Source of the DNA: a virus
Virus record (IMG/VR): IMGVR_UViG_3300035687_000005
Location: 1 to 64,000 of that record
DNA: 64,000 nt
Reading direction: 5' to 3' (one strand)
The notes below the pieces were generated by a model. It worked only from the letters and a program-made list of their open reading frames with translations, ran no database searches and was not told the origin of the DNA. Below, piece by piece: positions 18,394-52,835 of this stretch. Position numbers and translations under genes: made by a program. Within the stretch, counting starts at the first letter, position 1. Each line of letters begins with the position of its first letter.

Positions 18394-18672
18394 TCAGGCC
18401 GCCGTGCCTGCGGCGATGGGGGCGGTTGCGGGGTCGGGCTCCTCGTCGAGGGAGTCCTCATCGGTGGCCGACGGCAGCGCGGCGATGTACGCGTCGATGG
18501 CTTCCTGACTGACGTAGACGCGGGCGCCCTGCCTCTTGGTGGTGAGCGCCTTGCTGGCGGTCAGCGCCCGGAACGTCCGCTCGGAGATGCCACCGAGCAG
18601 CGCGCGGGCTTCCTTCGAGTTGTAGAGCCGGTTACCGTGCACCGGGGTGCTTGCGGATGCTTTACCGTGCAT
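18394..18672 (-). CDS. Excisionase/Cro-like helix-turn-helix protein (92 aa)
   Basis: Residues 15-70 are a MerR/AlpA-like winged HTH of the excisionase class (RLYNSKEARALLGGISERTF, then TTKRQGARVYVSQEAIDAYI). The acidic C-terminus is probably flexible. It is the first gene of the leftward early operon and is divergent from the XRE-type repressor, so it is either a Cro-like switch protein or the recombination directionality factor. ATG 18672 is preferred over the GTG at 18708: it sits six bases after a TACGTT -10 element and keeps the operator outside the gene, implying a leaderless message. Confidence 0.75.
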   Translation of the reverse strand: MHGKASASTPVHGNRLYNSKEARALLGGISERTFRALTASKALTTKRQGARVYVSQEAIDAYIAALPSATDEDSLDEEPDPATAPIAAGTAA

Positions 18673-18865: not shown

Positions 18866-19324
18866 ATGGACGGGATTTACCGTTTCCTCATGCCCGCGAA
18901 TCCGGAAGCGCGCCTGGCCGCGTTCTCGGCTTTCGTGCGCCGTGCACTCGACGAGGCGCGCGTCTCGCGGGGCCTCAGCGTCGAAGGCGTCGCCCGTCTG
19001 GCGGGCATCGGCGTCAACACCGTCTACCTGTGGCGTAACGGCACGTTCAAGCAGTACCCGCTGGGTGAGAGCGTCGAGGCGTTCTGCGACGCGTTGAACA
19101 TCCCCACGTCGGCCGCGTTCAACATCCTGTGGCCGGGGAAGTCGGGCAAGGCTGCAAGCCCAGAGCCCATCCCGCCCGACCCGGACTTCGAGCTGCTGCT
19201 GCGCAAGCTTCGCGACCCGGCGGTTTCGGAGCGGGAGAGGTACCTGATCCGGGAGACGATCCGAGGTCTCGCCTTGCGCCCCAGCGCGTCCCCTGACGTC
19301 CGCAAGCGCCGCGACGCGGGCTAA
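18866..19324 (+). CDS. XRE-family repressor, candidate immunity repressor (152 aa)
   Basis: ATG 18866 follows a GGAAGGGA ribosome site. Residues 20-75 are an XRE helix-turn-helix: VRRALDEARVSRGLSVEGVA then LAGIGVNTVYLWRNGTFKQY, with the FCDALNI-P continuation usual for cI-like proteins. The C-terminal part is Pro/acidic then helical (FELLLRKLRDPAVSERERYL), with no LexA-type Ser/Lys protease motif, so induction would not be by self-cleavage. Divergent from the early operon across a palindromic operator, and just upstream of the integrase, it is the best candidate for the lysogeny repressor. Confidence 0.75.
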   Translation: MDGIYRFLMPANPEARLAAFSAFVRRALDEARVSRGLSVEGVARLAGIGVNTVYLWRNGTFKQYPLGESVEAFCDALNIPTSAAFNILWPGKSGKAASPEPIPPDPDFELLLRKLRDPAVSERERYLIRETIRGLALRPSASPDVRKRRDAG

Positions 19325-20054: not shown

Positions 20055-21500
20055 GTGACCAGGCAGCCGAACGGCCGGCCCTCGATCTCGCAGAGCACCG
20101 ACGGGTGGTGGCACTGCTACGTCACCGTCGGCCGCAAGACCGACGGCAGCCTCGACCGTAAGCACATCCGCCGCCGCACCGCCGGCGCTGTCGCGACGGC
20201 CGTCGACGAGCTGCAGGAACGCATCAGTCGGGGGACCGGCCTGGCGCAGAAGGTCGAGACGGTCGAGCAGTGGCTGCTTCACTGGTTGGAGCATGTGGTG
20301 GAGCCGTCGAAGGCGTGGAAGACCCACGCCGGGTACCGGTCGTTGGTCACGAGGCATGTCATACCGGCGCTGGGGCAGTGGAAGCTGGACGGCACCCGGA
20401 ACCGGCTCGAGCCGGAGTACGTCGAGGCGATGTACGCGAAGCTGCGCAAGCAGGGGTTGGCGCCGTCGTACGTGTTGCAGGTGCACCGGGTGCTGCGGAA
20501 GGCGCTGAAGGACGCGGTCAGGCGGGGGAAGGCGGCGCGGAACGTCTGCGACATGATCGACCCGCCGCGTGCCCGCCGGGGGCGGGTCGACGCGCACTCG
20601 CTCGTCGACACGCAGGCGATCCTCGGTGCTGCCATGTCGGACCCGCTCGCCGGGCGTTGGCTGATCGGGATGCTGCTGGGTCCGCGGCAGGGTGAGGCGT
20701 TGAGCCTGCGGTGGCACCGCATCCACTTGGACGCCGACTCGCCGTATCTGGCGGTGGCCACGCAGCTGCAGCGGCGGACGTGGCGGCACGGGTGTAAGTC
20801 GCCGGTGGAGTGCGCGACGCCGCGGTGCCGGACGAAGGCGTGCCCGCCGCGGTACGAGCACGGCTGCGACGGGTGCGGGATGAAGCTGGCGCACTTCTGC
20901 CCGGCGCGTCGGGTGGTGGCGGGGTGCTCCCGGCACCAGCGGCCGTGTCCGCCGGTGTGCCGGCCGGGTTGCACCGACCACGCGCGTGGGTGCCCGGACC
21001 GGGTCGACGGTGGTCTGCTCGAGGTGGACGTGAAGTCGGAGAAGGGTGAGCGGGACATCCCGTTGCCGCCGGTGGTGGAGGAGGTCCTGCGGCAGGCCCG
21101 GGAGCGTCAGATCGTGGCGTGCCGGGAGAGGGGCGTCGACTGGGACCGCGAGGGCCTGGTCTTCACGAACGAGCTGGGCGGTCCGATCGACCCGCGCGCG
21201 GATCACGCGGCGTGGGAGCGGTTGTTGGTGCGGGCGGGCGTGGCGGACACGCGGCTGCACGCGGCTCGGCATACGGCGGCGACGTTCATGGTGGCGTCGG
21301 GGACCGACATCCGGGTGGTGCAGGAGATCCTCGGTCATTCGCACATCAACGTGACGGCCGGTTACGCGGACGCGGGCCAGGAGGTGAAGCGTCAGGCGGT
21401 GGATCGGATCGCGAGCGCGTTGATGGATGGTCAGTTGACGGCGCTGTTGCAGGGGACTCCGAAGGGCTCTCTGCGACCTGAAAGTTCCTCGCATACGTAG
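20055..21500 (+). CDS. int: Tyrosine integrase with a zinc-rich insert (481 aa)
   Basis: N-terminal arm-binding domain (about 1-65), core-binding SAM-like domain (68-170) and catalytic domain. Catalytic residues are visible: Arg211 (LLGPRQGEALSL), a Lys in VKSEKGERDIPL (327 or 330), His402-x-x-Arg405 (LHAARHT), His428 (LGHSH) and nucleophile Tyr437 (TAGYA). Between Arg211 and the Lys, residues 240-315 insert a segment with 12 Cys and several His, likely binding two or three zincs; related inserts occur in other actinobacterial integrases. It catalyses phage integration into, and with a directionality factor excision from, the tRNA-Phe site that lies 85 bases downstream. Confidence 0.95.
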   Translation: MTRQPNGRPSISQSTDGWWHCYVTVGRKTDGSLDRKHIRRRTAGAVATAVDELQERISRGTGLAQKVETVEQWLLHWLEHVVEPSKAWKTHAGYRSLVTRHVIPALGQWKLDGTRNRLEPEYVEAMYAKLRKQGLAPSYVLQVHRVLRKALKDAVRRGKAARNVCDMIDPPRARRGRVDAHSLVDTQAILGAAMSDPLAGRWLIGMLLGPRQGEALSLRWHRIHLDADSPYLAVATQLQRRTWRHGCKSPVECATPRCRTKACPPRYEHGCDGCGMKLAHFCPARRVVAGCSRHQRPCPPVCRPGCTDHARGCPDRVDGGLLEVDVKSEKGERDIPLPPVVEEVLRQARERQIVACRERGVDWDREGLVFTNELGGPIDPRADHAAWERLLVRAGVADTRLHAARHTAATFMVASGTDIRVVQEILGHSHINVTAGYADAGQEVKRQAVDRIASALMDGQLTALLQGTPKGSLRPESSSHT

Positions 21501-21584: not shown

Positions 21585-21629
21585 TGGTGGCCAGGGGCGG
21601 GGTCGAACCGCCGACCTTCCGATTTTCAG
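21585..21629 (-). other. attP core: 3' half of a tRNA-Phe gene
   Basis: On the minus strand these bases read as the anticodon loop (CTGAAAATC, anticodon GAA), variable loop, complete T arm (GGCGG-TTCGACC-CCGCC), 3' acceptor strand CCTGGCC and ACCA of tRNA-Phe. The 5' half (acceptor, D arm, 5' anticodon stem) is absent: the preceding bases do not pair. Both flanks are phage genes, so this is an attP-type identity segment that would restore the host tRNA on integration, not an intact tRNA gene. About 45 bases of identity are expected with attB. Confidence 0.85.
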
Positions 21630-21989: not shown

Positions 21990-23093
21990 TCAGGCCGCTT
22001 CTTCGGCCGCCCTGATCGCCTCGACGGCCCACCGTGGTGCCCGGCCCCGCTCGGCCGCTCGGACCGCGCCGCGCAGGATCTTCGGCACCCGCGCCGACCC
22101 CACCACCGGCGCCTTCGCCATCAGATCCTCGGCGACCCGCTCGGCGTCACGCCACCCGCGCACGTTCACGAGGTCGTGCAGCAGCCACGCCCGGTACAGC
22201 GCCTGATCCCGGCCCTGCCGGTCGGGCAGCGCGGCGACCGCCAGCTGCGACGCGCGAACCGCGCCACGCCCGTCATCCGTCGCGGCGAGCAGCCGGGCCT
22301 CGTGCACCGCCAGCTCCGCCTCGTGCAGCCACCACGTCCACGCCGGATCGTTCGGGCCGATCCCGCCGGCGAGCTCACCACGGGCACGCTCGAGCTCGGC
22401 CAGGGCTTCGGTCCGGTCGCCGAGCTCACCGAGGGCCCGGGCGCGGCGGACGCGGAGCATCCCGACGACCCGGCCGGACTTGGGCGCTTCGGCGAGGACC
22501 CGGTCGGCGATCTGCAACCCTTCCGCACCGCGGCCGAGGTAGACGGCCTGCATGGACAGGTGGGAGAGGAGGAAGCGTTCCATGCTGCGGTCCCCGGCCA
22601 GCTGCGCGACGAGCAGGGCCTCGGTGGCGACCTGCCGCGATTCCTGCTGGTGCTCGGAGTCGTAGGCCAGCCAAGCGGCGACCTCGCCGACTTCGGCGAT
22701 GGCCGCGTGTAGGTCTGATGCGGTGCCCGGTGCGGCGCCGGCGGTGGCGAGCTGGCGGTGGGCGTTGCGGAACGCGCGGGCGGCGACGGTGTGCAGGCCT
22801 TCGGAGCCGTGCATGGTGTCGAGGCTGACGAGCTGCTGCACGGTGTCGTGGAGGCGGCCGATGTCGGTGTCGTCCATAGGGCGCCGCAGGTCTGCGGGGG
22901 CGGCGGCGGTGCGCTGCCCGGCGAGCGCGGACAGTTCGCCGGCGGCGTTGAGCGCGTTGTCGATCCGGTCGGCCATCTCCGGGGTGGGGTGGACGACGCC
23001 GTTGGCGAGGCGGGAGACGTGCGCCTTGTCGGTGAACAGGGTGGCGGCGAGCGCGGCCTGGGTGATGCGGGCGAGGGCGATGCGGCGCTTCAT
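21990..23093 (-). CDS. XRE-family regulator with TPR-like C-terminal domain (367 aa)
   Basis: N-terminal HTH (residues 1-45: RIALARITQAALAATLFTDK, then AHVSRLANGVVHPTPEMADR) and about 270 residues of degenerate TPR-like helices (for example LGELGDRTEALAELERARGE). This architecture is common in Streptomyces-type bacteria and on their integrative elements and resembles peptide-sensing RRNPP regulators in layout. ATG 23093 was chosen because the HTH begins there; the in-frame extension to 23234 would read through a palindromic operator. It probably controls its own promoter and possibly the transfer-type module to its right. Confidence 0.8.
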   Translation of the reverse strand: MKRRIALARITQAALAATLFTDKAHVSRLANGVVHPTPEMADRIDNALNAAGELSALAGQRTAAAPADLRRPMDDTDIGRLHDTVQQLVSLDTMHGSEGLHTVAARAFRNAHRQLATAGAAPGTASDLHAAIAEVGEVAAWLAYDSEHQQESRQVATEALLVAQLAGDRSMERFLLSHLSMQAVYLGRGAEGLQIADRVLAEAPKSGRVVGMLRVRRARALGELGDRTEALAELERARGELAGGIGPNDPAWTWWLHEAELAVHEARLLAATDDGRGAVRASQLAVAALPDRQGRDQALYRAWLLHDLVNVRGWRDAERVAEDLMAKAPVVGSARVPKILRGAVRAAERGRAPRWAVEAIRAAEEAA

Positions 23094-23275: not shown

Positions 23276-23587
23276 TCACTCGGATGGTGCGGGTCTGCGG
23301 CGGCGGGCGATGAGGGCTTCGACGGCGGCGGGTTTGACGTACCGGTAACCGGATTCGGAGATGTGCCAGTCCTCGCCCTGTTGACCGTAGTGGCCTGCGT
23401 CGATACCGCGGCGGACCTTGTCGCGGCTGTCGGTGTAGCCGGCGGCGTGGAGTCGGGCGACGACGTCTTTGATCGTCCACCACGGCTTTTCCTCCACGCC
23501 GGCCTCCCTCGTCTGTAGCAACTCGTGCAACCGGGTCAATGATCGCAGGCTGCGCACGCGGAGGCGAGTGGCGGGCTGGTGCGTCAT
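23276..23587 (-). CDS. Winged-HTH DNA-binding protein (103 aa)
   Basis: Residues 35-95 read as a MerR/excisionase-type winged helix: WWTIKDVVARLHAAGYTDSR, then RGIDAGHYGQQGEDWHISES and YRYVKPAAVEALIARR. Divergent from the transfer-type operon. The start is ATG 23587, six bases after a TACTGT -10 element, so its message is probably leaderless. It may repress the divergent operon (compare Kor-type regulators of actinomycete plasmids) or serve as excisionase; the sequence does not decide between these. Confidence 0.75.
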   Translation of the reverse strand: MTHQPATRLRVRSLRSLTRLHELLQTREAGVEEKPWWTIKDVVARLHAAGYTDSRDKVRRGIDAGHYGQQGEDWHISESGYRYVKPAAVEALIARRRRPAPSE

Positions 23588-23680: not shown

Positions 23681-24184
23681 ATGGCGATCGTTGAGGCCAT
23701 CCACCTCCGTAAGTCGTTCACGCGCGGCATCGCCTGCGGCATTACGGGCAGCGTCCGGATCACCGAACGGCTGAGCGAGGCGACATGCCAGCGGTGTTAC
23801 TACGAGGGCGACCCGGTTGCGCGGACCCGCGCCTTGATGGTCGAGGCTGCGCACGCTGAGGCGCTGGAGATGCACACCGAGATCACCGGCGAGGTTCCGG
23901 TTCGTAGGACCACCGCCGAGCGCAACCGTCAGGCGTACATCGATGCGATTGACGCGCAGATCGCCGAGCTGCTGGCCCGCCGCGCGGCCCTGGTCGGTCC
24001 ACCATTCCGTGTGGGCGACCTGGTTCACCGCACGGACGACGAGGGGTTCGACCGCTGGCAGGTGTGGGTCGTGACCCGCGTGGACGCTGTCGACCCGCGC
24101 AAGGTGAGCCTCGGCCAGCGCGGTGACGACTGGCGCATGGCCATGAACGTCAGTGCCGCCACCTTGGTCGAGGCGCAGGTCTGA
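23681..24184 (+). CDS. Hypothetical protein, first gene of the transfer-type module (167 aa)
   Basis: ATG 23681 has AGGAG upstream. The N-terminal 50 residues include a CQRCYYEGDP knuckle; a helix follows (RNRQAYIDAIDAQIAELLARR); the C-terminus is an SH3-like beta barrel (FRVGDLVHRTDDEGFDRWQV). No known family. It leads the rightward operon and may be a regulator or a DNA-binding accessory of transfer. Confidence 0.7.
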   Translation: MAIVEAIHLRKSFTRGIACGITGSVRITERLSEATCQRCYYEGDPVARTRALMVEAAHAEALEMHTEITGEVPVRRTTAERNRQAYIDAIDAQIAELLARRAALVGPPFRVGDLVHRTDDEGFDRWQVWVVTRVDAVDPRKVSLGQRGDDWRMAMNVSAATLVEAQV

Positions 24185-24255
24185 TGCGCGACGTTGGCAT
24201 GACGGCGGACGCGGCGCTGCTGGCCGCGGTGGACCTCGCAGACCTGGAGGCATGA
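24184..24255 (+). CDS. Micro-protein (23 aa)
   Basis: TGATG-coupled to the preceding gene and ending four bases before the next start. Ala/Leu-rich helix. Supported only by coupling; could be a translational relay. Confidence 0.35.
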   Translation: MRDVGMTADAALLAAVDLADLEA

Positions 24256-24259
24256 CCCC

Positions 24260-25366
24260 ATGACCGCCTCTGAATTTCTCGCCGCCGCCTCCGCCTTCCT
24301 CGCCGAGCACCGCGGCGCCCTGATGGTCGGCGCCCTCGCATTCGTCGTCGTGGCGCTGCTACTGACCATCCGCCGCGCCGTGAAGGGCGGCCGGCCGGAT
24401 CGCTGGGTCGACGCGATCGCGTTCCTCGGCGCCCTCAGCTTCTCCGCCGAGGGCATGTGGGAGGTCGCGACCCAGAAGCTGGGCCTGCCGGCCACGTTCG
24501 CCGCGCTGGTGTTCTTCCTGTTCGAGGCGCAGTTGGTCTCGGCGATGTTCCGGGCCAACCGGTACCAGAAGCTCAACGGCAACCCCGGTCGGCACGGTCG
24601 AGCGGTGTGGCTCATCGCCGGGGTGATGGGCCTGATCGTGGCGTTCGCGGCCGACAGCTTCGTCGAGGCGCCGCTACGTCTGGCCATCCCGCTGCTCGCC
24701 GCGTACCAGTGGTGGCTCGGTCTGACCGCCGACGGTGTCACCGAGGACAAGGGTGCGACGTCGTGGCGGTGGACGCCGCGTCGGCTGCTGCTGTGGCTCG
24801 GCGCGATCGAGCCGGGTGAGCGCGACGTCGTGGCGGTCGACCGGGAGCGCCGCGTCGCACAGATGACCAACCTGGAGTACCGGCGCCGGCACGGTTGGGT
24901 GCGTCTGGCCGGCCGCCGCGGTGCGCGCCTGGCGCGTCTGAGTCTCGTCGCCGACGACGAGATGATCGCGGAGGTGCAGCGCCGGGTCGACCGCGCCGGC
25001 TGGTTCGACGCGACGCACGCCGACGCCCCGGCGGAGCACGCTCGCCGGTCCAAGTCGCTAGGCGTGGCTGCGTCGGAGAAGCGGCGCCGGGTGCGTCATC
25101 ACCGCCTGGTTCGGACCGTGCGGGTGACGCACCCGGCACCGAAGATCGCTCCTGCTCAGGACGTGCGTCAGGACGATCGGACGACGCAGGAGATCGACCT
25201 TGCGATCTGCGTCATGAAGGCGGGCGACCCGGACCTGGCTCAGCGACGGATCGCTCATCTGGTCGGCACGTCCGAGGCCACTGTCCGACGCGCTCTGCGT
25301 CGCAGGCAGTACACCTCGCCGCCGCCCATCAACGGCAAGATTCCCGAGCTTGAAGGAGCCACCTGA
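24260..25366 (+). CDS. Polytopic membrane protein with C-terminal HTH, Spd/DUF2637-like (368 aa)
   Basis: Five hydrophobic segments in the first 160 residues (around 20-37, 48-60, 74-95, 115-135 and 137-152), then a long basic cytoplasmic region, and a C-terminal helix-turn-helix (DLAQRRIAHLVGTSEATVRR, about 328-347). Membrane N-half plus DNA-binding C-half is the layout of spread/transfer proteins on actinomycete conjugative elements, where such proteins assist TraB in moving double-stranded DNA across cross-walls. Assignment is by topology and neighbourhood; sequence identity to a named Spd protein could not be tested. Confidence 0.65.
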   Translation: MTASEFLAAASAFLAEHRGALMVGALAFVVVALLLTIRRAVKGGRPDRWVDAIAFLGALSFSAEGMWEVATQKLGLPATFAALVFFLFEAQLVSAMFRANRYQKLNGNPGRHGRAVWLIAGVMGLIVAFAADSFVEAPLRLAIPLLAAYQWWLGLTADGVTEDKGATSWRWTPRRLLLWLGAIEPGERDVVAVDRERRVAQMTNLEYRRRHGWVRLAGRRGARLARLSLVADDEMIAEVQRRVDRAGWFDATHADAPAEHARRSKSLGVAASEKRRRVRHHRLVRTVRVTHPAPKIAPAQDVRQDDRTTQEIDLAICVMKAGDPDLAQRRIAHLVGTSEATVRRALRRRQYTSPPPINGKIPELEGAT

Positions 25367-25467
25367 TGATCCACGTCCTGTCCGTGTGGGTGCTGCTGAA
25401 GTGTGGCTGCCAGGTGCAGTGCCACGGCAACGCCCCGCGACCCACCACCTGCCCCGACCACCCGTAG
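25366..25467 (+). CDS. Mini Cys-rich protein (33 aa)
   Basis: TGATG-coupled to the membrane protein gene. The sequence has four Cys in 17 residues (KCGCQVQC, then TCPDH), a likely zinc or disulfide knuckle. Function unknown. Confidence 0.5.
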   Translation: MIHVLSVWVLLKCGCQVQCHGNAPRPTTCPDHP

Positions 25468-25483
25468 ATCAAGGAGAACTGAG

Positions 25484-25567
25484 ATGGCGAAGGACAGCAA
25501 GGCGTCGAAGGAACTGCAGGGTTCCGAGGACGACATCAAGACCATCAAGACGTTCGGACTGCGCTGA
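25484..25567 (+). CDS. Mini hydrophilic protein (27 aa)
   Basis: AAGGAGA ribosome site five bases upstream. Lys/Asp-rich peptide, TGATG-coupled to the next gene. No function known; the ribosome site makes translation plausible. Confidence 0.5.
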   Translation: MAKDSKASKELQGSEDDIKTIKTFGLR

Positions 25568-25719
25568 TGGCCATTCCGAAGAAGTGGTTCGTGCAAGAGG
25601 AGCGCGCCCGGATGGACCGCAACCAGGCGGACGCGGTCGGGGACCGGGCGGCTGCCAAGAGGCATCAGGCGGCGATGGACGAGGCACTGGCCAAGCAGGA
25701 CCAGCACAAGAAGAAGTAG
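25567..25719 (+). CDS. Small basic helical protein (50 aa)
   Basis: A single charged helix (EERARMDRNQADAVGDRAAA) ending in KKK. Possibly a DNA- or RNA-binding accessory. TGATG-coupled to the preceding mini-gene and followed by a strong hairpin. Confidence 0.55.
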   Translation: MAIPKKWFVQEERARMDRNQADAVGDRAAAKRHQAAMDEALAKQDQHKKK

Positions 25720-25725
25720 CTCCGC

Positions 25726-25770
25726 GCGGGGCGCGACCTCAGCCCTCGACAAGCACCGGTCGCGCCCCGC
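25726..25770 (+). terminator. Strong hairpin inside the transfer-type operon
   Basis: Perfect 13-bp stem (GCGGGGCGCGACC with its complement) and a 19-base loop, between two rightward genes. No U tract follows, so it is more likely an attenuator or RNA-processing/stability element than a full terminator. Confidence 0.5.
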
Positions 25771-25796
25771 TCCCCCACGAAGGAGGAACACCCATC

Positions 25797-26225
25797 ATGC
25801 GCGTCCCCCTCGATCGAATCGACGACCTGCGGGCAGCGAACCGCTGGGAAACGATCTGCTCCATCGTCGGCTGGTTGTTCGCCGCGACGTTCGCCCTGAT
25901 GGCGGGGTTCTACTTCGCCGGTATGGACTACGCCAAGCACATCATGGTCATCCCGTCCCTGGTGCTGTTCGCGGCCTGGGTCGGGGCCACGATCCGGGAG
26001 CGTGTACTCCGCGACCGGGCCCATGTGCCGTCCCCGTCGGACGGTTGCTGCGACTGCGGGGTCGCCGAGTGCGACGTCATCGTCGCCCCCGACGACCGCG
26101 GTCGCGGCGAGGGCTACTGCTGGGGCTGCATCGACACCTGGCCGGCCGACGCTCCGGCGACGGTGGACGAGCTCGGGATCTACGTCTTCCCTGGTCGCGA
26201 GCGGGCCGAGGGGGTGCAGCCGTGA
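25797..26225 (+). CDS. Two-span membrane protein with zinc-ribbon tail (142 aa)
   Basis: AAGGAGGAAC ribosome site before ATG 25797. Two hydrophobic segments (about 21-42 and 47-66), then a cytoplasmic domain with CCDCGVAEC and CWGC, four to five Cys that could hold one zinc. Part of the rightward module; predicted membrane partner of the translocase by position. No family recognised. Confidence 0.7.
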   Translation: MRVPLDRIDDLRAANRWETICSIVGWLFAATFALMAGFYFAGMDYAKHIMVIPSLVLFAAWVGATIRERVLRDRAHVPSPSDGCCDCGVAECDVIVAPDDRGRGEGYCWGCIDTWPADAPATVDELGIYVFPGRERAEGVQP

Positions 26226-26410
26226 GCCGACTGCCCGCGCACGTCGCCGACCGCAGCCCCGCCGTCGTCGTCGACGGCACCGTCGTCCAGCCCGCCCCTG
26301 GATATCGCCCGGCGGTCCGCGGCGGTCCGAGCCTCGCGTTTGTCCTGGTCCTGATCCTGGTCCTGTTCGGCAGCGCCTTCGCTGTCGGCCTCGGCCTGTC
26401 TCTGCTCTGA
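26222..26410 (+). CDS. Single-span membrane protein (62 aa)
   Basis: GTG start overlapping the upstream stop. The C-terminal 25 residues form one hydrophobic helix (LAFVLVLILVLFGSAFAVGL). The N-terminal half is hydrophilic. Small Spd-type membrane proteins are typical beside traB genes of actinomycete elements. Confidence 0.65.
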   Translation: MSRLPAHVADRSPAVVVDGTVVQPAPGYRPAVRGGPSLAFVLVLILVLFGSAFAVGLGLSLL

Positions 26411-26419
26411 GGAGTTCCG

Positions 26420-26677
26420 TTGCCCGCCGACCGCTACCGCGTCCAGCTCTACCGCAACGGCGTCCACCGGCGCCGACAGGAGGTGCTCACGAACCTCGAC
26501 CCGCACGACGACACGATCCTGCGCGAGTGGCTGGAACGCCTCGTCAAGGCAGACCGGGGCACCCTGCGCCTGAATTTGGCAGACGGCTGGGAGCTGAAGG
26601 TCCGCATCCCGGACGGGATCCGGGTCGTCGCGACGGCCACCGTCGACAAGTCCGGCCGCACGGTGGTGAAGCGGTGA
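26420..26677 (+). CDS. Small hypothetical protein (85 aa)
   Basis: TTG start with GAGGAG five bases upstream. Beta-rich, basic (YRVQLYRNGVHRRRQEVLTN, then LRLNLADGWELKVRIPDG). No family recognised. It overlaps the next GTG. Confidence 0.6.
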   Translation: MPADRYRVQLYRNGVHRRRQEVLTNLDPHDDTILREWLERLVKADRGTLRLNLADGWELKVRIPDGIRVVATATVDKSGRTVVKR

Positions 26678-26940
26678 GCCGCCGACAGAAGGTCAGCGCC
26701 GCGCGGCGGGCGGCGTACTGGGCGGCTCGCACGAGCCCTTCTCAGCCGCCGGAGGACCGGACGGCGGCGGCCTGGGACTGGCTCAGGACGACCATCGCCG
26801 ACCTGCCGTCCACCCACCAGCGTGAGGCCTGGGCAGCAGCATTCGACCAGATCAACGGGGTACGGCGGGCCATCACGGACGGTGAGTTCACACCGGGTGT
26901 TCACACCGGGTCTGCGAACCGTTCGGAGCTCCACACGTAG
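26674..26940 (+). CDS. Small basic hypothetical protein (88 aa)
   Basis: GTG start overlapping the preceding stop (GTGA). Arg/Ala-rich N-terminus (SRRQKVSAARRAAYWAA), then helices with conserved-looking Trp residues (AAAWDWL, REAWAAAF). Possibly DNA-binding. Unassigned. Confidence 0.6.
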   Translation: MSRRQKVSAARRAAYWAARTSPSQPPEDRTAAAWDWLRTTIADLPSTHQREAWAAAFDQINGVRRAITDGEFTPGVHTGSANRSELHT

Positions 26941-26975
26941 ACACGCGTGAACGCGCGCGAGGCCATCGTACACAT

Positions 26976-26988
26976 CGGTCACTGACCG
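26976..26988. promoter_or_regulatory. Palindrome CGGTCACTGACCG
   Basis: A perfect 13-base palindrome in the 73-base gap before the next gene, where a new promoter or operator would be expected. No clear -35/-10 pair was recognised around it. Confidence 0.35.
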
Positions 26989-27013
26989 TCACAACAAGGA
27001 AGGGAGAAAGGCT

Positions 27014-27448
27014 GTGCAAGCAGGAGTTTCAGCCGGCGTCGGCATCGTGTGTCTCGTCGCCGCCGGGGTGCTCATCGTGGCCGGCCGGTGGCAGTGGCCG
27101 CGCCTGATCGTGGCGCTCGTCATCACCGGTGTGGCCGGGCTGCTGACGTCCACGATCGGTTCGTGGATGCATGCGAGTGTGACCCGCCTGGACCGGCGGG
27201 CGTCCGCGTTCGTCGGTCAGTGGACCGGCGCCGCGGTGTCGGGGATCTTGGCGGTGGTGCTGCTCGGGTTCCTGGCGTTCTGGATCTGGCACAACCAGGT
27301 CGACGCGAAGACCATCGGGGTGGCGGCCGCCGTGCCGGTGACCGTGACGCTGATCCCGGGTCCGCTCGGCGCGTTCGCCGTCGCCGCGGTGTCCGTGGTC
27401 CCTGCGGTGCTGGGCGGCGTCGTCGCCTGGCTGTTCGGGCTCGGGTGA
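27014..27448 (+). CDS. Polytopic membrane protein (144 aa)
   Basis: GTG start after an AAGGGAGAAAGG ribosome region. Almost entirely hydrophobic with about five helices (for example VGIVCLVAAGVLIVAG and AVSGILAVVLLGFLAFWIW). Four bases from the next gene. The topology and place next to the translocase are those of small spread proteins of actinomycete conjugative elements; the specific role is unknown. Confidence 0.7.
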   Translation: MQAGVSAGVGIVCLVAAGVLIVAGRWQWPRLIVALVITGVAGLLTSTIGSWMHASVTRLDRRASAFVGQWTGAAVSGILAVVLLGFLAFWIWHNQVDAKTIGVAAAVPVTVTLIPGPLGAFAVAAVSVVPAVLGGVVAWLFGLG

Positions 27449-27452
27449 TCTC

Positions 27453-28454
27453 GTGGAGATCTTCGGTATCGCGATCCTCGCCGCCGGGCTGATGGGTGTC
27501 TGGCACGTCACCAGGTACGCCGTCCCGCGGACCATGCGCGCGGTCGGCAAGAAGAGGTCGGCCAGCATCCAGGCGTGGAAGGCCCAGCACCCGAACGCCC
27601 CGGCGGTCACCCGCTGGCCGGCGGCGATCGCGCGGGCCATCGCGGCGTTTCGGTGGGGGCCGCGGTTCCTCATCGAGGAGACCCGCACCGCGTGGCGGGA
27701 GGGCATGGAGCTGGGCCGTCACAAGTACGGGCAGGTCGTCACCGACCCACCCACACCTGCCGGCGCAACGGACCCGGTCGGCACCGAGTCTGCCGTCAGT
27801 GACCGGTGTGCCCGGTGCGGCCGCACCGGCAGCGATAACCACCCCCTCATACCGAGATCCGACGGCACGAGCGCGTGCGCACCCTGCCATTACAGCCGCT
27901 GCGTGAAATGCGAGAAGAACTTCGCCGCCGATGGCGACGTCGCCTGCCCGGAGTGCCGGGCATGGCAGGACGAGCGCAACAAGCAGGCACCGCCGCTCCC
28001 CCGGCCCCGGCCGCACCTCGTATCCGTTCCCAACCCGATCCCCAACCTCATCGGCCCACCGGCCACACGTCAGAAGGAGAACACCATGACGATCCAGACC
28101 ATCACCGGCGGCGAAGTCAACAGCCCCGAGCAGCTCGTCGCCGAACTGCAGGCCATCACCGCCGAGGCGGCAGCCGACCTCGAGGACGCCCGCGGCGACG
28201 CCGTCCGGGCCGAGGAGGACGCCGCCCGGATCGAGAAGATGGTCGGCTGCCTGACCAACCTGAAGCTCCCCCCGGAGGACATCAGCTCGGTGCAGGGCCT
28301 GCTCGAGCCGGCCATGGCGCGTAAGGCGGCCGCTGAGCAGCGCGCCGCGGCGGCGGAGAAGCGGGCGTCGCAGGCGCAGTCGGCGCTGGTGATGGCGCAG
28401 CGGCACGTCGAGCTGCAGGGCCAGGGCGCGGCGGGTGACTTCTACCGTTCCTGA
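27453..28454 (+). CDS. Membrane-anchored zinc-ribbon and coiled-coil protein (333 aa)
   Basis: One frame with three parts: an N-terminal hydrophobic helix (IFGIAILAAGLMGVWHV), a zinc region around residues 118-172 (CARCGRTG, CAPCHYSRCVKC, ACPEC), and after residue 211 an Ala/Glu-rich coiled coil. An in-frame ATG at 28086 follows an excellent AGAAGGAGAACACC ribosome site, so the last 122 residues are probably also made as a separate protein. Roles unknown; the coiled coil directly precedes the TraB-like gene. Confidence 0.7.
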   Translation: MEIFGIAILAAGLMGVWHVTRYAVPRTMRAVGKKRSASIQAWKAQHPNAPAVTRWPAAIARAIAAFRWGPRFLIEETRTAWREGMELGRHKYGQVVTDPPTPAGATDPVGTESAVSDRCARCGRTGSDNHPLIPRSDGTSACAPCHYSRCVKCEKNFAADGDVACPECRAWQDERNKQAPPLPRPRPHLVSVPNPIPNLIGPPATRQKENTMTIQTITGGEVNSPEQLVAELQAITAEAAADLEDARGDAVRAEEDAARIEKMVGCLTNLKLPPEDISSVQGLLEPAMARKAAAEQRAAAAEKRASQAQSALVMAQRHVELQGQGAAGDFYRS

Positions 28455-28464
28455 CCGTTTCCGT

Positions 28465-28491
28465 GCAGGCCCCGCCGCTGGTGGGGCCTGC
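28465..28491 (+). terminator. Hairpin upstream of the TraB-like gene
   Basis: GCAGGCCCC / GGGGCCTGC stem of 9 bp with a 9-base loop, 10 bases after the preceding stop and 43 bases before the TraB-like start. No U tract; it could reduce read-through and so set the translocase level. Confidence 0.45.
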
Positions 28492-28534
28492 GCTGTGACA
28501 GGCAGGCACAAGCCGACCAGGAAGGAGCACCGCG

Positions 28535-30532
28535 ATGGGCCTCGGCCAGTTCATCGGCGCGTTCGCCGAGGCGGCCGCCCCGGCGCCGATCGTCGTGGCG
28601 CCGCCGTCGTGGCAGCGCCGGTTGCGCCGTTGGGCGCTGCGGAAGGCGTGGCGGATGGTGTGCCGCATCTTCCGCCGCGCGCTGTCGTGGGGTCGCGCCC
28701 TCGCGCCCTGGTATCTGGCGCTGACGGTGTGGCTCGCCGCGGCGATCGCCGGGCAGGTCGAGAACGGGTGGCGCACCCTGGTCGCCCTCGCCCTGGTCGG
28801 TGCCGCGCCCATGTACCGGTGGTTGGGTCTGCCGCTGGGCCGGCTAACGAAGCGGCGGAAGGTGAAGCCGACGGAGCAGCGCTGCTGGTACGCCGGCTTC
28901 TACGTCCTGCTGTCGGTGTGGTCGGCGGTAGGTGCGGCGTGGACGGTGCTGCCACCCTGGGCCGGGGTGCTGTGGCTGGGGACGTTCGCGACGTGGGTGC
29001 GGTGGATGTGGCACCGCCGCACCCGCCGGGTCGAGGTCCTCGTCGGTGAGATCGTCGACGACCGGCTGACCCGGTGGGCGCGGATCGCCGGCGAGGGCAA
29101 GCCGTTGAAGGGCGCCGAGCTGGAGAACCTGAACGCCCTCGAGGAGCCGCGCCGGTGGACGGCCGACGTCGTGCTGCCGTCCGGTGACCTGACGGTGGAG
29201 AACGTGCAGTCCGCGCACCGGCGGATCTGCTCGGCGTTCTCGACCCGCCGGGACAACATCATCATCGACGAGTCGCCGGGCGGGGCGGAGGACGCCGCGG
29301 TGCTGACGGTCGTCGAGGAGAACCCGACGCACACGGCGATCGAGTACGACGAGGGCTGGCAGAAGGAGTTCGCCCCGGGCTGCTTCGGGTTCCACACCTA
29401 CGGCGACGGGTTCCGCGGCGGCCTGCGACTGTGGCAGCCGATGTCCGGTACGGCGAACACCCTGTTCTCCGGTGACACCCGGGCGGGGAAGTCCGCGGGC
29501 ATGGAAGCCGGGCTGATCCAGGCGGTGGACACCGGCCTGGTGTGGCCGATGGCCGGCGACCCGCAGGGCGGCCAATCCATGCCGGCCGTCGTCGGCGAGG
29601 CGGGCTGGGCGAAGCACAAGGCCACCGATCCGGAGTCCGTTTACAACCAGCTGCTGGCGCTGAAGGAGGCGATGTACGCGCGGTCCCGGCTGCTGCAGCG
29701 GATGAAGTGGTCGGACGCTGACGGCGAGCACGTCGGCATCGGGTTCTACGACCCGCAGGTCACCGGCCTGCCGATGATCCTCTACATCTTCGACGAGGCG
29801 CACATCGCGATGAAGGACCCGGACTGGGGCCCGTTCATCGTGCTGCTCGTCGAGGAGCTCGTGCGGATGGTCGGTAAGACCGGGATCGCGTTGTGGTTGG
29901 CCACCCAGTACCCGGGGATCGAGGACCTGGGTAACAAGATGTCGATCCGGCAGAACCTGATCGCCGGGAACGTGGTGTCGTACAAGAACTCGGCGGCTGT
30001 GGCGAAGGGCATGATCCTGCCGGCGTCAATGCCGTCGCCGTACCAGATCCCGAAGGAGACGCCGGACGGCGGCCACACGAAGGGCACGGCGGTGATCTAC
30101 TCGGCGGCGCCTCGGTCGTCGCGGTCGGCGTACTCCCGGTCGGTGTGGGTGAAGCGGGCGCACCACTTCGGCGCGTTGGCGGCGGCGAAGATCCCGGTGC
30201 TGGACGAGGTGACCGGCAACGCGATGTCCCGGTACATCGACCTGCCCGGGTCGGCGCCCGCGGCGAAGGCGGTGGAGCCGCAGCGGGAGCGCATCGTCGT
30301 GGCGGCCGCGCCCGCGAGGAAGGAGCGGGCGATCGACCGGATCGTGGCGTACCTCGACGGCCGGGAGGACGGCCGGGCGCACACCGGTGTGATCGCCGAG
30401 GCGCTAGACATGCCGAAGGGCACGGTCGGGATGACGCTGCGGCGGGCGGAGGCGTCCGGTGCGGTGCACAAGGTCCGCGACGGGGTGTGGGCGCTGGGCC
30501 GGGCGACCGCCGAGGCCGGTGTCGCCGCGTAG
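28535..30532 (+). CDS. TraB-like FtsK/SpoIIIE DNA translocase (665 aa)
   Basis: AAGGAGCACC ribosome site before the ATG. Residues 1-50 are basic; four hydrophobic helices lie around 55-160. The motor domain has Walker A GDTRAGKS (313-320) and Walker B ILYIFDEA (415-422), and the RecA-fold tail (LWLATQYPG). Residues 595-655 form a C-terminal winged helix (VIAEALDMPKGTVGMTLRRA), corresponding to the domain with which Streptomyces TraB recognises clt repeats. The order and length fit TraB of actinomycete conjugative elements, which moves double-stranded DNA between mycelial cells as a hexamer. It is not a terminase; phage packaging is covered at 62.3 kb. Last gene of the rightward module. Confidence 0.9.
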   Translation: MGLGQFIGAFAEAAAPAPIVVAPPSWQRRLRRWALRKAWRMVCRIFRRALSWGRALAPWYLALTVWLAAAIAGQVENGWRTLVALALVGAAPMYRWLGLPLGRLTKRRKVKPTEQRCWYAGFYVLLSVWSAVGAAWTVLPPWAGVLWLGTFATWVRWMWHRRTRRVEVLVGEIVDDRLTRWARIAGEGKPLKGAELENLNALEEPRRWTADVVLPSGDLTVENVQSAHRRICSAFSTRRDNIIIDESPGGAEDAAVLTVVEENPTHTAIEYDEGWQKEFAPGCFGFHTYGDGFRGGLRLWQPMSGTANTLFSGDTRAGKSAGMEAGLIQAVDTGLVWPMAGDPQGGQSMPAVVGEAGWAKHKATDPESVYNQLLALKEAMYARSRLLQRMKWSDADGEHVGIGFYDPQVTGLPMILYIFDEAHIAMKDPDWGPFIVLLVEELVRMVGKTGIALWLATQYPGIEDLGNKMSIRQNLIAGNVVSYKNSAAVAKGMILPASMPSPYQIPKETPDGGHTKGTAVIYSAAPRSSRSAYSRSVWVKRAHHFGALAAAKIPVLDEVTGNAMSRYIDLPGSAPAAKAVEPQRERIVVAAAPARKERAIDRIVAYLDGREDGRAHTGVIAEALDMPKGTVGMTLRRAEASGAVHKVRDGVWALGRATAEAGVAA

Positions 30533-30547
30533 GACCTCGAGCACGAC

Positions 30548-30591
30548 AAAGAGCCGCCCACCACCTCGCGAGAGGCAGTGGGCGGCTCTTT
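30548..30591. terminator. Bidirectional terminator between transfer-type module and late operon
   Basis: A 14-bp perfect stem (AAAGAGCCGCCCAC with its complement) around a 16-base loop that can itself pair (CCTCGCGAGAGG). Read rightward the stem ends in CTTT; read leftward it also ends in CTTT. It lies between convergent genes and can stop both transcripts. Confidence 0.85.
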
Positions 30592-30665
30592 GATGTTGCG
30601 CTGACCTGCGCTTACGGTCTGTACGGCCCGCTGACGGCTTTGGATCTCGCGCCGAGGGTGCCGGG

Positions 30666-31245: not shown

Positions 31246-31605
31246 CTACACCACGTCGCCGTCGATGACCGCTGATGCCGGGACCCTGGCCACGACCTGG
31301 GTGCGGACGAACATGGCCACGACACCGCCGACGAGGCTCATGATGACGGCCTGGTGCTCGGCGTCGATGTGCAGGCCGAAGCCGACGGCGAGCGCGAGGA
31401 GGGCCTGGGCGACGCCGAGGATTCCGGCGACGAGGCCGTCGCCGACGACGTTCGCGACGATGAGGCCGGCGGCGGCGGTCGCTGCGGCGTTGAGGAGGGC
31501 CTGCTGGCCGTCGGTGAGGTCGAGGACGAACGCGGCGAGGAACCGGACGGCGGTGGCGAAGAGGGTCAGGAAGACTGCGGGCTCCCTGCCGAAGAACTTG
31601 GGCAT
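31246..31605 (-). CDS. Membrane protein, holin candidate (119 aa)
   Basis: Three to four hydrophobic stretches (AVFLTLFATAVRFLAAFVLD; AAATAAAGLIVANVVG; ILGVAQALLALAVGFGLHI; VIMSLVGGVVAMFV), a charged N-terminus and no signal peptide. The layout is that of actinophage holins that lie downstream of the endolysin. It is one of several membrane proteins in this region, so which is the true holin is undecided. Confidence 0.6.
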   Translation of the reverse strand: MPKFFGREPAVFLTLFATAVRFLAAFVLDLTDGQQALLNAAATAAAGLIVANVVGDGLVAGILGVAQALLALAVGFGLHIDAEHQAVIMSLVGGVVAMFVRTQVVARVPASAVIDGDVV

Positions 31606-31635
31606 GACGACTCCCTGATCGGTGAGGATGTGCGG

Positions 31636-31944
31636 ATGGATCGGGTGGTGTTGCACCTCGAGCACGGCGTGGGCCGGGTCAAGGCGTGGCAGTGCGCGCC
31701 GCCGGAGTCGTACCGGTGCCGCACGATCTCGATCGGCACCCTGGCCGGCGGCCGGTGGTGGGCGAACCACACCGGTGTGCACGGCGGGGCGTTCCTATGC
31801 CGGGACCGGGCGCACGCGCAGGAGGTCGCCGACGGGTGGATGGACGGCGGCGAGTGGTGGGAGGTGCCGGCGGAGTTCGGCCCAGACGGTCAGCCGACGG
31901 AGCCGGGGTGGGTGCGACGCGGCGGCAGCTGGTTCCCGGCGTGA
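31636..31944 (+). CDS. Small hypothetical protein on the opposite strand (102 aa)
   Basis: First of four rightward genes inserted at the end of the leftward late operon. Trp-, His- and Gly-rich (TLAGGRWWANHTGVHGGAFL) and ending in GSWFPA. Coding bias is good. No family recognised. A GAGGAT element six bases before the ATG resembles the -10 boxes of other leaderless genes here, but less exactly. Confidence 0.55.
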   Translation: MDRVVLHLEHGVGRVKAWQCAPPESYRCRTISIGTLAGGRWWANHTGVHGGAFLCRDRAHAQEVADGWMDGGEWWEVPAEFGPDGQPTEPGWVRRGGSWFPA

Positions 31945-35858: not shown

Positions 35859-36863
35859 TCAGGAGGCCAGCCGCGTCGACATCAGGTTCAGCAGCGCCTC
35901 GGCGTCGGGCTTCCCCAGCTTCGCCTCCAGCGCGATGGCGAGCGCCTCGACGTCGACGGGCGCGTCGTCCGCCGCGCCGATCGCGGCGGTCAGGGTGAGC
36001 GTGCTCGCGCCGATCGCGGCCTTCACCGGGTCCACGATGACGGTACGCAGCGCCGCCGCGAGCTGCCTGGCGGTCGGCGTGGTCGGTGCCGCGGCCTGGG
36101 TGAACACCTCGTGCAGGCCCTGGACGATGGCCGGCTCCAGGGCGTCACGCCCCTCGCCGGACTTCAGGAACGCGATCATCTCCGTCTTGTTCATGTCGTC
36201 CCTTCCCGGCGCGACGAGCGCCTTCAGTTCGTCGATCGTTCCCCGGTACGCGTTGGCGTCGCAGCTGCCCTGGCCTGCGATGCGGGCCTGGCTGCCGTAC
36301 TGCAGGATGGTCGGCACCTGACCTGAGTAGGCCGCCCACCGCCCGGATGTGTCGCCCGGGTACAGGGCCCGGTAGTCGCCCGCAGGGTTCGTGCCGTACG
36401 AGCTGGCCCACAGCGGATAACCCAGCCCGGCGAGCCGGTCCCCGTACACCCACTTCGGGGCGTACACCACCGGCCGGAAGCCGGGCGCCCGGGCGGCCAG
36501 GCGGGCACAGAACGCCTTCACCTCCGCCGGTGACGGCTCCGGGGACGTGCCCCAGGACTCGCAGTCGGCCTGCAGGATGAACGGTTCGTCGCGCCACCCG
36601 GGCGCCTTCGCGTCCAGCAGGACCAGGAACCGGTCGGCCTGCGCCACCTCGTCACCGGGGCGCAGCACGTAGTAGGCGCCCAGCAGCGGGATGCCGGCGC
36701 GCTGCGCCTTGGCGTAGAAATCGTCGAACCTCGTGTCGGTGTAGCCCCACCCCTCGCCGATCTTGTGGGTGGCGAAGGTGATGCCTCCGGCCTTCGCCGC
36801 GGCGAGGTCCATCGACCCGCGGTCCCAGTCGTAGTGGCTGGCATCCCACCCGAAGACCGTCAT
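35859..36863 (-). CDS. Endolysin, GH25 muramidase (334 aa)
   Basis: Residues 3-200 are a GH25 lysozyme: GWDASHYDWD (5-14), ATHKIGEGWGYTDTRFDDF (31-49), YYVLRPGD (64-71), and the catalytic D-x-E in LQADCESWG (Asp100, Glu102), with GRWAAYSGQVPTILQYGSQA near the end of the domain. Residues 225-334 are an Ala-rich helical tail that probably binds the wall. It cleaves the glycan of peptidoglycan to release progeny. Signal peptide absent, so it needs a holin; candidates are downstream. Confidence 0.9.
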   Translation of the reverse strand: MTVFGWDASHYDWDRGSMDLAAAKAGGITFATHKIGEGWGYTDTRFDDFYAKAQRAGIPLLGAYYVLRPGDEVAQADRFLVLLDAKAPGWRDEPFILQADCESWGTSPEPSPAEVKAFCARLAARAPGFRPVVYAPKWVYGDRLAGLGYPLWASSYGTNPAGDYRALYPGDTSGRWAAYSGQVPTILQYGSQARIAGQGSCDANAYRGTIDELKALVAPGRDDMNKTEMIAFLKSGEGRDALEPAIVQGLHEVFTQAAAPTTPTARQLAAALRTVIVDPVKAAIGASTLTLTAAIGAADDAPVDVEALAIALEAKLGKPDAEALLNLMSTRLAS

Positions 36864-38131: not shown

Positions 38132-39682
38132 CTAATTGGCGAAGACGCCCTGGTCGAAGCCCTGACCGACGGTGTCGAACAGGAACATGGTGGTGGGGTC
38201 GTCGGCGCCGGTCCCCACGAATTTGCCGTCGTTGAAACCGCGACCGGCCACGTCGAACGTGAACGGCGACGCGACGGTGTCCGGGACCTTCTCGAGGCCG
38301 AACGTGGTGCTGTGATTCAGGCCGCCGTCGGTGATCGCATGGGAGATCTGCTCGATCCAGCAGTCCGCGTCCAGCCCGGTGTGAGACTCGGCGACGTGGA
38401 CCCGATCGGAGAGGTTCCGTGACAGCTGCTGCAGCAGCCGGGTGGTGTTCCCGCCGACCATCGTCACGGTGATCGTCGGCAGGCGTTCGGCCCGCTTGCC
38501 GACGATCAGGTCGGCGATGGCCTTCGCGTCGTGCACGCCGGCCCAGATCGGCGTCCGGGTCGCCTGCGGCGAGCGGCGTCCGTACTTGCCGATGCTGACC
38601 GAGTCCTCGACGGACACCACCACGGTGGTGACGGTCGCCAGCGCGTAGCCGCGTACCTGCAGGTCGTCGACGACCGCTGTGCCGCCGACTGCCTTGACGG
38701 ACACGGTGGTGGATTCGCCGGAGGTGTTGAACAGCGCCACCTCGATGGTGCCGGAGACCAGCTGATAGTCGGTTCCGACCTCGGGGACCACGGCCTCGAG
38801 GAAGGGCGACGAGCCCCGTGCGGAGATCAGGATCGTCTCCCCGGCCGAGATCGTGGTACGGCCGGGAGAGGACCACACCACCGACAGCTCGCCTGATGGG
38901 ACCCGCACCGGCACGTCGAAGGAGACCGAGTTGATGATCTCCTTCCAGCCGTGGTTGTAGTCGGCCGGCGCGGAGATCAACGGCTCGACCGCGCCGCTGC
39001 TGCGCCACGTCGACTGCACCGTCCGGGACGCGGTACGCAGCAGCCGGTGGTGCCGGTCCCGGAACACGATCTGCCCGGCCGAGTCGACGGTCACCAGCGC
39101 CGCCGGGCCCTCGGAGTCGACGATCTGCATCAGGGCGTCGTAGGCGTCGGAGTTGTCCGCCCACCACCACGGCATGACCGTGGCGCCGGCGTCCAGATCC
39201 CGCAGGGTGGCGGACCACCCGACCGCGTCGAGGAGGAGCCCGATCGCGGCGCCGGTCCGCAGCCCCGAGTAGATCGGGGTGCTGACCTGCACGCCCTTGA
39301 GGCGGGCCAGCGGATCGAGGCAGGTCACGTCGATGGAACGCTGGTCGCGCCCCGGCTTGACCTTGAAGTCGTCCAGGTGCCCGCTGAAGATCGTGTAGGT
39401 GGTGGCGGACAGGACGGCCTGGATCATGGCCGACCGGCCCGGCTGGACCAGGCCGACCAGCGGCGACGAGGTGTTCTCCGGGCTGAAGTCGCGGGACTGG
39501 TTGTTCAGCTCGAACCCGGCCTCACCGACAGCCGTCGGCGACAGCGCCCGTGCCTGGTCGCGGCCGTACCGGACGGTGATCGGGGTACGCCCGTCCAGGG
39601 TGCGGCTGGTGACGTTCTCCCGGGTGTCGCTGAAGTCCCCGTCGTTGTTCCAGTCGATGTAGACGAAATACTCCGCCGGCAT
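38132..39682 (-). CDS. Tail hub / minor tail protein (516 aa)
   Basis: Starts EYFVYIDWNNDGDFSDTREN (a distal-tail-like opening) and has long beta-rich segments with LLDAVGWSATLRDLDAGATV and VDSEGPAALVTVDSAGQIVF in the middle, resembling hub/tail-associated proteins that follow the tape measure. Overlaps the tape-measure stop (TGATG). The expected role is in the tail tip, joining tail tube to baseplate. Confidence 0.7.
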   Translation of the reverse strand: MPAEYFVYIDWNNDGDFSDTRENVTSRTLDGRTPITVRYGRDQARALSPTAVGEAGFELNNQSRDFSPENTSSPLVGLVQPGRSAMIQAVLSATTYTIFSGHLDDFKVKPGRDQRSIDVTCLDPLARLKGVQVSTPIYSGLRTGAAIGLLLDAVGWSATLRDLDAGATVMPWWWADNSDAYDALMQIVDSEGPAALVTVDSAGQIVFRDRHHRLLRTASRTVQSTWRSSGAVEPLISAPADYNHGWKEIINSVSFDVPVRVPSGELSVVWSSPGRTTISAGETILISARGSSPFLEAVVPEVGTDYQLVSGTIEVALFNTSGESTTVSVKAVGGTAVVDDLQVRGYALATVTTVVVSVEDSVSIGKYGRRSPQATRTPIWAGVHDAKAIADLIVGKRAERLPTITVTMVGGNTTRLLQQLSRNLSDRVHVAESHTGLDADCWIEQISHAITDGGLNHSTTFGLEKVPDTVASPFTFDVAGRGFNDGKFVGTGADDPTTMFLFDTVGQGFDQGVFAN

Positions 39683-42990: not shown

Positions 42991-42995
42991 TCAGC

Positions 42996-43966: not shown

Positions 43967-44054
43967 GATGGTGCCCTCCTGGCTCCTGGCGGGCCTGGCG
44001 TAGAAGTGCGGGGCCGGTCCCGCCAGGAAGCCCGACCCCGCACGCTCAGAAGGA

Positions 44055-44534: not shown

Positions 44535-44538
44535 CTAC

Positions 44539-44943: not shown

Positions 44944-44957
44944 CGGGTCAGGGCCTC

Positions 44958-45293: not shown

Positions 45294-45352
45294 CCGGCGC
45301 ACCCCCTTCTTGGTGGATGTGGCGTTGAGCAGGGCACCGGTACGGTCACGGC

Positions 45353-45720: not shown

Positions 45721-45728
45721 CTCATCCA

Positions 45729-46109: not shown

Positions 46110-46192
46110 GCTGACTCCCATTTAGTCCGATGGCTAAATCTGGCGTTGGTAGCCGCGGATTAGCCGCACAGAGTTACGTGGTGGGTGATTGC

Positions 46193-52823: not shown

Positions 52824-52835
52824 CGGCGGGCCTCC

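Follow-up and report, generated by a model that had tools for sequence, protein, structure and literature searches.

A temperate siphophage of an actinomycete seems, on balance, to have acquired a complete plasmid-type cassette for the transfer of double-stranded DNA, which would give it a second, non-lytic route of spread. The likely function of the cassette would be to move the excised phage DNA between hyphal compartments or mating hyphae. The window analysed here comprises 64,000 nt of a 64,407-nt IMG/VR virus record. The cassette, a rightward operon of membrane proteins and mini-genes with an FtsK/TraB-type ATPase as its final gene, occupies positions 23681-30532, as the first-pass annotation had proposed, and lies, also as proposed there, between attP (21587-21629) and a complete siphophage late operon (Table 1).

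Table 1. Features of the cassette and of the surrounding phage genome (positions in the window)
Feature	Position	Strand	Evidence
HTH_17 protein, first early gene, Cro/excisionase-like position	18394..18642	-	Pfam HTH_17 8e-7; divergent from 18866
Phage-type HTH regulator	18866..19324	+	phrog_8 transcriptional regulator 1.4e-5; divergent from early operon
Tyrosine integrase	20055..21500	+	PF00589 4e-17, phrog_1 7e-52
attP core, 43 bp identical to Micromonospora tRNA-Phe(GAA) 3' end	21587..21629	-	
NsdA-family HTH/TPR regulator, divergent from module	21990..23093	-	NF053720 5e-45
Small HTH-like protein, divergent from module	23276..23587	-	Equally placed gene in L109
First gene of rightward operon	23681..24184	+	No trustworthy family match
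3-TM protein, C-terminal HTH-like segment, DUF2637 position	24260..25366	+	TM prediction; G003 equivalent
Mini-gene, 33 aa, TGATG-coupled	25366..25467	+	
Mini-ORF, 54 aa, GTG start, stop TGATG-coupled to 25567	25403..25567	+	
Mini-gene, 50 aa	25567..25719	+	
2-TM protein	25797..26225	+	TM prediction
1-TM mini-protein, translationally coupled (GTGA)	26222..26410	+	TM prediction
85-aa protein conserved in phage modules	26420..26677	+	39-40% over 85 aa in contigs G009/G010
4-TM protein, Spd-like, core trio	27014..27448	+	TM prediction; HMM matches in plasmids
N-terminally anchored protein (1 TM), coiled-coil-rich C-terminus, core trio	27453..28454	+	HMM matches in plasmids
TraB-like FtsK/HerA-type DNA translocase, C-terminal winged helix	28535..30532	+	Profiles, tree, predicted fold
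Bidirectional terminator-like hairpin, module/late-gene boundary	30547..30592	.	Inverted repeat
Holin-like membrane protein, first conserved phage gene past module	31246..31665	-	37% to equally placed PhiNon1 gene
GH25 endolysin	35859..36863	-	PF01183 6e-13
Siphophage late operon: tail, capsid, protease, portal, terminase	39682..63899	-	

The window carries all the genes expected of a temperate siphophage: an integrase with its attP, and late genes for terminase, SPP1-type portal, maturation protease, HK97 capsid, major tail protein, tape measure and GH25 endolysin. The capsid gene is closest to those of Arthrobacter phages, and the terminase, among named genomes, to that of an Isoptericola prophage. 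Judged from the attachment site, the host is probably a Micromonospora-like mycelial actinomycete, since the attP core is identical to a Micromonospora tRNA-Phe. Eight GTGCA motifs lie within about 250 bp around this core and are possible arm sites for the integrase. The product of 18866..19324 is likely to be the phage's own repressor, while the NsdA-family regulator, which has similar proteins encoded on actinomycete plasmids, is the probable kor-like repressor of the module; plasmid modules likewise have a divergent regulator upstream. The smaller 23276 product is 47% identical over 62 aa to the product of a gene equally placed beside an FtsK module in a prophage contig (L109). The two divergent regulators at 21990-23587 are plausibly part of the transfer unit.

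All genes of the module are open. Five products encoded between 24260 and 28454 have predicted transmembrane segments, in agreement with the polytopic membrane proteins described earlier, and the TGATG couplings of the mini-genes are found at 25366 and 25567, with a GTGA coupling at 26222 besides. The bidirectional terminator is also confirmed; its arms (30547-30567 and 30572-30592) are 21 nt long and 90% complementary, with runs of T and A on the two sides. The 24260 product and its counterpart in a phage contig (G003) are 32% identical over 214 aa. The gene in this position is DUF2637 in the modules of several relatives, but the DUF2637 profile check of the 23681-30532 proteins that had been suggested leaves the 24260 product undetected: it has no match to Pfam PF10935, and its hhalign comparison with the plasmid set is not significant and does not support membership of the family. 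The suggested search for clt-like octamer repeats gave no array in 21.4-31.0 kb, where octamer clusters are at chance level. At 25082-25141, within the 24260 gene, three copies of GTGCGTCA accompany an inverted repeat, a grouping no commoner than expected. No clt has been described for the AICE pSAM2 either.

The 28535-30532 product has 665 residues, with hydrophobic segments at 55-73, 81-99 and 121-139, a P-loop (GDTRAGKS) and a Walker-B-like motif (LYIFDEAH); GDTRAGKS and DEAH align with the plasmid family. Its C-terminal winged helix (residues ~592-656) folds confidently in the prediction, with a pLDDT of ~85, and residues 602-649 match MarR_2, a MarR-type winged helix, weakly (9.7e-4); the AlphaFold model is usable for this domain alone, the motor core being poorly modelled. 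The protein has no match to the PF01580 profile, and its match to NCBIfam plasmid_TraB (NF041214, 5e-7) scores 28.5 bits, far under the equivalog cut-off of 800, of which the plasmid relatives tested likewise fall short. The motor motifs and the winged helix agree with the first-pass description of a TraB-like FtsK translocase. In hhalign, the 28535 family aligns with pIJ101 Tra over 237 columns (E 1.6e-12); its HerA-type matches are weak. A tblastn search with the TraB-like protein found 46 actinomycete plasmids, and in the tree the protein clusters with plasmid transfer-type translocases rather than with non-transfer FtsK proteins.

Streptomyces, Kitasatospora and Micromonospora plasmids have a common gene plan: divergent regulator, mini-genes, DUF2637-type protein, 4-TM protein, ~300-aa protein and TraB-like protein. 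The window has the corresponding ordered set, with a divergent regulator, small membrane proteins and the TraB-like gene last. The core trio (4-TM, ~300-aa and TraB-like) is homologous gene by gene, with its order kept, in several plasmids. The HMM of the 4-TM protein matches the equivalent plasmid genes of S. microflavus (3e-60), NBC_01707 (2e-24), K. indigofera (4e-23) and M. zamorensis (7e-15), and that of the 27453 protein matches the modules of M. zamorensis (1e-10) and S. microflavus (4e-10); the 27453 protein is also 37-39% identical to its counterparts in phage contigs G009/G010. The large plasmids with the gene order and core trio of the window (pSV2, NZ_CP109321, NZ_CP109191 and NZ_CP107937) have Par genes nearby and, in the stretches examined, no virion genes. 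The TraB/Spd systems of pIJ101, pSVH1 and AICEs also share an FtsK-type motor with N-terminal helices and winged helix, small Spd-like membrane proteins and a divergent kor-like repressor with the window; their similarity is remote, however, and the window differs in having virion genes and no clt found. An AICE has an integrase, TraB and a replication protein of its own class but no virion genes, whereas a full siphophage late operon is present here. Of the earlier reading, a TraB/Spd-like transfer cassette that moves as a unit is supported, but its closest relatives are large, often linear Streptomyces/Micromonospora plasmids and not AICEs. Going by gene order and homology, the module is a plasmid transfer cassette of the large-plasmid type rather than a typical AICE one.

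Comparable modules are found in other phages, namely PhiNon1, pZL12 (gp071) and contigs G009/G010, G003, G019 and L109-L111, in which they lie near lysis or packaging genes. The order of the genes and their place between integrase and lysis genes are preserved in differing modules, and comparison with actinophage and plasmid genomes indicates that the module travels as a unit. A related phage contig (G001) has no TraB match. PhiNon1 (Nonomuraea gerenzanensis plasmid III, NZ_LT559120) is a complete circular siphophage that integrates into a tRNA gene. Its module runs from DUF2637 through a 4-TM protein to a TraB-like protein, between regulators/integrase and lysis genes; the TraB-like protein is 28% identical to that of the window and nearer to those of Streptomyces plasmids. 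Both the circle and the prophage of PhiNon1 were shown by PCR, with 17 copies as an episome, according to passages of its publication, which do not mention a transfer module. pZL12/PhiZL12 (NC_013420), a Streptomyces plasmid-phage, is a more remote relative. Its gp071, an FtsK-type protein with two TM segments and a P-loop, belongs to a branch other than that of the window, as sister of contig G003, and lies beside structural genes together with large and membrane proteins, mini-genes and a divergent GntR regulator. It is a 90-kb replicating plasmid with ParAB, whereas an integrase and a tRNA attP are present in the window phage, in which no ParA was seen. The idea that a Streptomyces phage has a conjugal transfer locus is not new: pZL12 has already been published, as cited in PMC3583192 and PMC5431353, and secondary literature reports its transfer by conjugation, for which a tra gene and two neighbours are required.

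The isolated phages P1312, Hiyaa, Keanu, Galactica and Spocter have an FtsK-like translocase that matches the pZL12/G003 type; the gene is near the integrase in P1312, and in Hiyaa a membrane protein with a weak DUF2637 match is encoded upstream. None of the five is found in a search with the window TraB, which, as sole query, finds no INPHARED phage and nothing closely related in the genomes of IMG/VR or GTDB; related phage contigs were located with terminase as bait. A survey of actinobacterial genomes, limited to two scored candidates per genome, gave a match at E<=1e-40 in one of 396, in a plasmid-like context. The recurrence of transfer modules across actinophages appears undescribed in the literature searched. 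A single phage clade is rejected in the TraB tree (AU p 4e-5), and exchange of the module with plasmids has therefore been repeated. Between the sister phages G009 and G010, dN/dS is 0.12 for TraB, 0.05 for the 4-TM protein, 0.05 for the DUF2637-like protein and 0.04 for the regulator; purifying selection acts across the whole module.

Instead of transfer between cells, the FtsK-like protein might serve, during septation, the segregation or partition of the DNA of the phage itself, episomal or replicating, and the membrane proteins would then place it at the septum. Its FtsK/SpoIIIE ancestry, the interpretation of FtsK-like genes of phages P1312 and Geonosis as serving segregation and replication, the episomal persistence of PhiNon1 and pZL12, and a ParB-like gene of the window at 15269-15913 favour this function. 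It is nevertheless unlikely: each partner gene has its match in plasmid modules of the transfer type, such plasmids have separate Par genes, and a prophage with an integrase and a tRNA attP, as here, needs no partition. Protection of the lysogen, with the membrane proteins and the FtsK/HerA-like ATPase acting in superinfection exclusion or defence, is very improbable. HerA-family ATPases do occur in defence systems, the 28535 family has its weak matches of this type, and the operon, divergent from the regulators, may be expressed in the prophage; but no nuclease or effector partner was recognised, and the homologues sit in plasmid modules beside Spd-like genes and DUF2637 proteins.

If the module were a non-essential piece captured from a plasmid, merely hitch-hiking and useless to the phage, this would accord with repeated plasmid/phage exchange and with the seemingly interrupted TraB frame of contig L111. 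The open genes of the window module, the selection on the G009/G010 module and the preserved order and integrase-to-lysis place make this improbable. An AICE or plasmid misjoined to a phage during assembly is scarcely credible, even though the record is a contig and read data are absent. Both junctions recur in independent phages, where relatives of the 23276 and 31246 genes likewise stand next to modules in unchanged position, and the finished circular PhiNon1, together with several contigs, has its module in the matching place; a chimeric assembly is rejected on these conserved junctions, and the module truly belongs to the phage.

If the cassette serves transfer, it would start from phage DNA that is excised or replicating. 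With its N-terminal helices as membrane anchor, the TraB-like ATPase would assemble as a ring, and its winged helix would recognise a site on the phage DNA. The ATPase would then pump the double-stranded genome across septal walls, or from one hypha into another in contact with it, by a passage that the Spd-like 4-TM and N-terminally anchored partners may form or open. In the compartment reached, the DNA would integrate again at tRNA-Phe. Non-lytic spread would thus add a second route to that by lytic virions.

Because a complete plasmid-type transfer gene set lies beside the integration site, spread through a colony without killing may be possible. Virions may reach inner compartments poorly, since mycelial hosts are multicellular. 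Tentatively, temperate phages that infect mycelial actinomycetes may widely carry exchangeable plasmid-type transfer cassettes at a set place by the integrase and lysis genes. If so, conjugative prophages would spread through hyphal networks without lysis, and pZL12 would be the first example seen, an episomal one. A phage that also passes septa or hyphal contacts would make the distinction between phages and conjugative elements less sharp, and might offer host DNA a second route of mobilisation.

The rightward operon of the module ends in a gene for a TraB-like protein of 665 aa, whose family is present on 46 actinomycete plasmids and has a profile that aligns to pIJ101 Tra across the motor. 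Plasmid modules share the gene plan of the window: a divergent regulator, mini-genes, a DUF2637-type gene, the 4-TM and ~300-aa proteins, and the TraB-like gene last. HMMs of the 4-TM protein (one plasmid-like member, G202, among its sequences) and the ~300-aa protein match equivalently placed plasmid genes. By these matches and the common gene plan, the module travels as a unit, and the reading of it as TraB/Spd-like in the first-pass annotation is supported. Its description as an actinomycete transfer region holds for the plasmid-type plan, but its kin are large plasmids more than AICEs.

The window covers nearly all of the virus record, which is 64,407 nt long. The extreme right of the window can be read as the beginning of a small terminase gene similar to those of the phage contigs G001 and G003, and this makes the contig resemble a complete virion-type genome that was opened near cos. 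The attP is unbroken and lies mid-contig, the same state as in excised or packaged DNA. No ParA partner for the ParB-like protein was seen in the window, and a simple gene finder called no convincing leftward gene in the GC-rich segment of the late operon.

Features of the window
Feature	Position	Direction	Remarks
Early genes	0.6-18.7 kb	leftward	
Primase-like and family A DNA polymerase domains, fused	5025-9365	-	1,446 aa
ParB-like protein	15269-15913	-	ParB_N + HTH_ParB; early operon
Phage-type HTH regulator, tyrosine integrase	18.9-21.5 kb	rightward	
Eight GTGCA motifs	21515-21764		flank attP core; possible integrase arm-binding sites
attP core	21587-21629		43 bp
Two regulators	22.0-23.6 kb	leftward	
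Transfer module	23.7-30.5 kb	rightward	
Inverted repeat around GTGCGTCA	25082-25141		3' part of 24260 gene; third copy at 25163
4-TM protein	27014-27448	rightward	
~300-aa protein	27453-28454	rightward	
TraB-like protein	28535-30532	rightward	
Lysis, tail, head, packaging genes	30.7-64 kb	leftward	
GC-rich segment	49451-52836		GC up to 0.76; clustered octamers

The tRNA-Phe(GAA) of Micromonospora sp. CB01531 has the attP core, base for base, at its 3' end; with up to 3 mismatches allowed, the core was not found in the Isoptericola, the Nocardia or the Mycolicibacterium genome tested. The nearest TraB relative is likewise carried by a Micromonospora plasmid, and together these findings favour a mycelial host. 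Counterweights are the capsid, at 71.5% to Arthrobacter phages, and the terminase, whose match at about 70% is an Isoptericola prophage.

A chimeric join of module and phage is rejected, and the module is supported as truly part of the phage, by matching modules in other phage contigs and in PhiNon1, a finished circular Nonomuraea element that is itself a complete phage and has the module at the matching place. A terminase-bait search found G009 and G010 (TraB E about 1e-145), where the module is flanked by the integrase on one side and lysis genes on the other, G019, and G003, in which several late proteins are 47-84% identical to those of the window. The G003 FtsK differs, being pZL12-type, while its DUF2637-position protein is related to that of the window. 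IMG/VR scans with other TraB-like family members added L109 and L110, where a G003-type FtsK adjoins lysis and tail genes, and L111, which has a capsid and, a short distance upstream of its terminase and portal genes, a TraB of the Streptomyces-plasmid type. The L111 TraB-like frame (10001-12045) is apparently interrupted; the module genes next to it share 77-79% identity with a plasmid-like module. In the published plasmid-phage pZL12, the FtsK gene gp071 is homologous to that of G003 and similarly set. The authors of the PhiNon1 study showed it by PCR both as a circle and as an integrated prophage.

The main rival explanation of function is that the FtsK-like protein serves segregation. Isolated phages P1312, Hiyaa and relatives carry the G003-type FtsK. 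For P1312 and for Geonosis, the authors suggested that the FtsK-like gene of their phage has a role in segregation or replication. In Streptomyces plasmids, TraB forms a hexameric pump of the FtsK type whose winged helix binds 8-bp clt repeats, and intramycelial spreading requires spd genes (PMC4170104; PMC3583192). Because the window module has parts corresponding to these systems, its best-supported putative function is to move the phage dsDNA, once excised, through septa or from one hypha to another. No clt repeat array was found in the module region searched; the GTGCGTCA repeat, not above chance, is a candidate protein-binding site.

In a tree of 17 proteins, whose long branches call for care, the TraB-like protein of the window is sister to an M. 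zamorensis plasmid protein (100/99), that of PhiNon1 groups with Streptomyces-type plasmids (84/92), and G003 FtsK groups with pZL12 (100/99). The grouping of the window, G009, G010 and PhiNon1 proteins in one clade is rejected (AU p 4e-5). Repeated plasmid-phage exchange is the simplest reading. The FtsK proteins of G003 (L073; 4756-6789) and the window belong to two different branches though the terminases are 83% identical, which suggests module or gene swapping. The 6.4-kb modules of G009 and G010 are 94% identical over their whole length, with dN/dS of 0.04-0.24 (TraB 0.12), as in other phage genes, so the module has been kept working in phages.

A phage with a transfer module has a precedent in pZL12. 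For PhiNon1, also a published plasmid-phage, the available part of the description mentions no such module. In the main text of a survey of actinobacterial prophages from 2023, neither FtsK nor TraB nor conjugation comes up, and an AICE survey depended on PF01580, which does not detect the TraB-like protein of the window. Given this precedent and these surveys, the novelty lies in the form: a temperate phage that integrates and carries a transfer module of the plasmid type. It stands among several independent cases.
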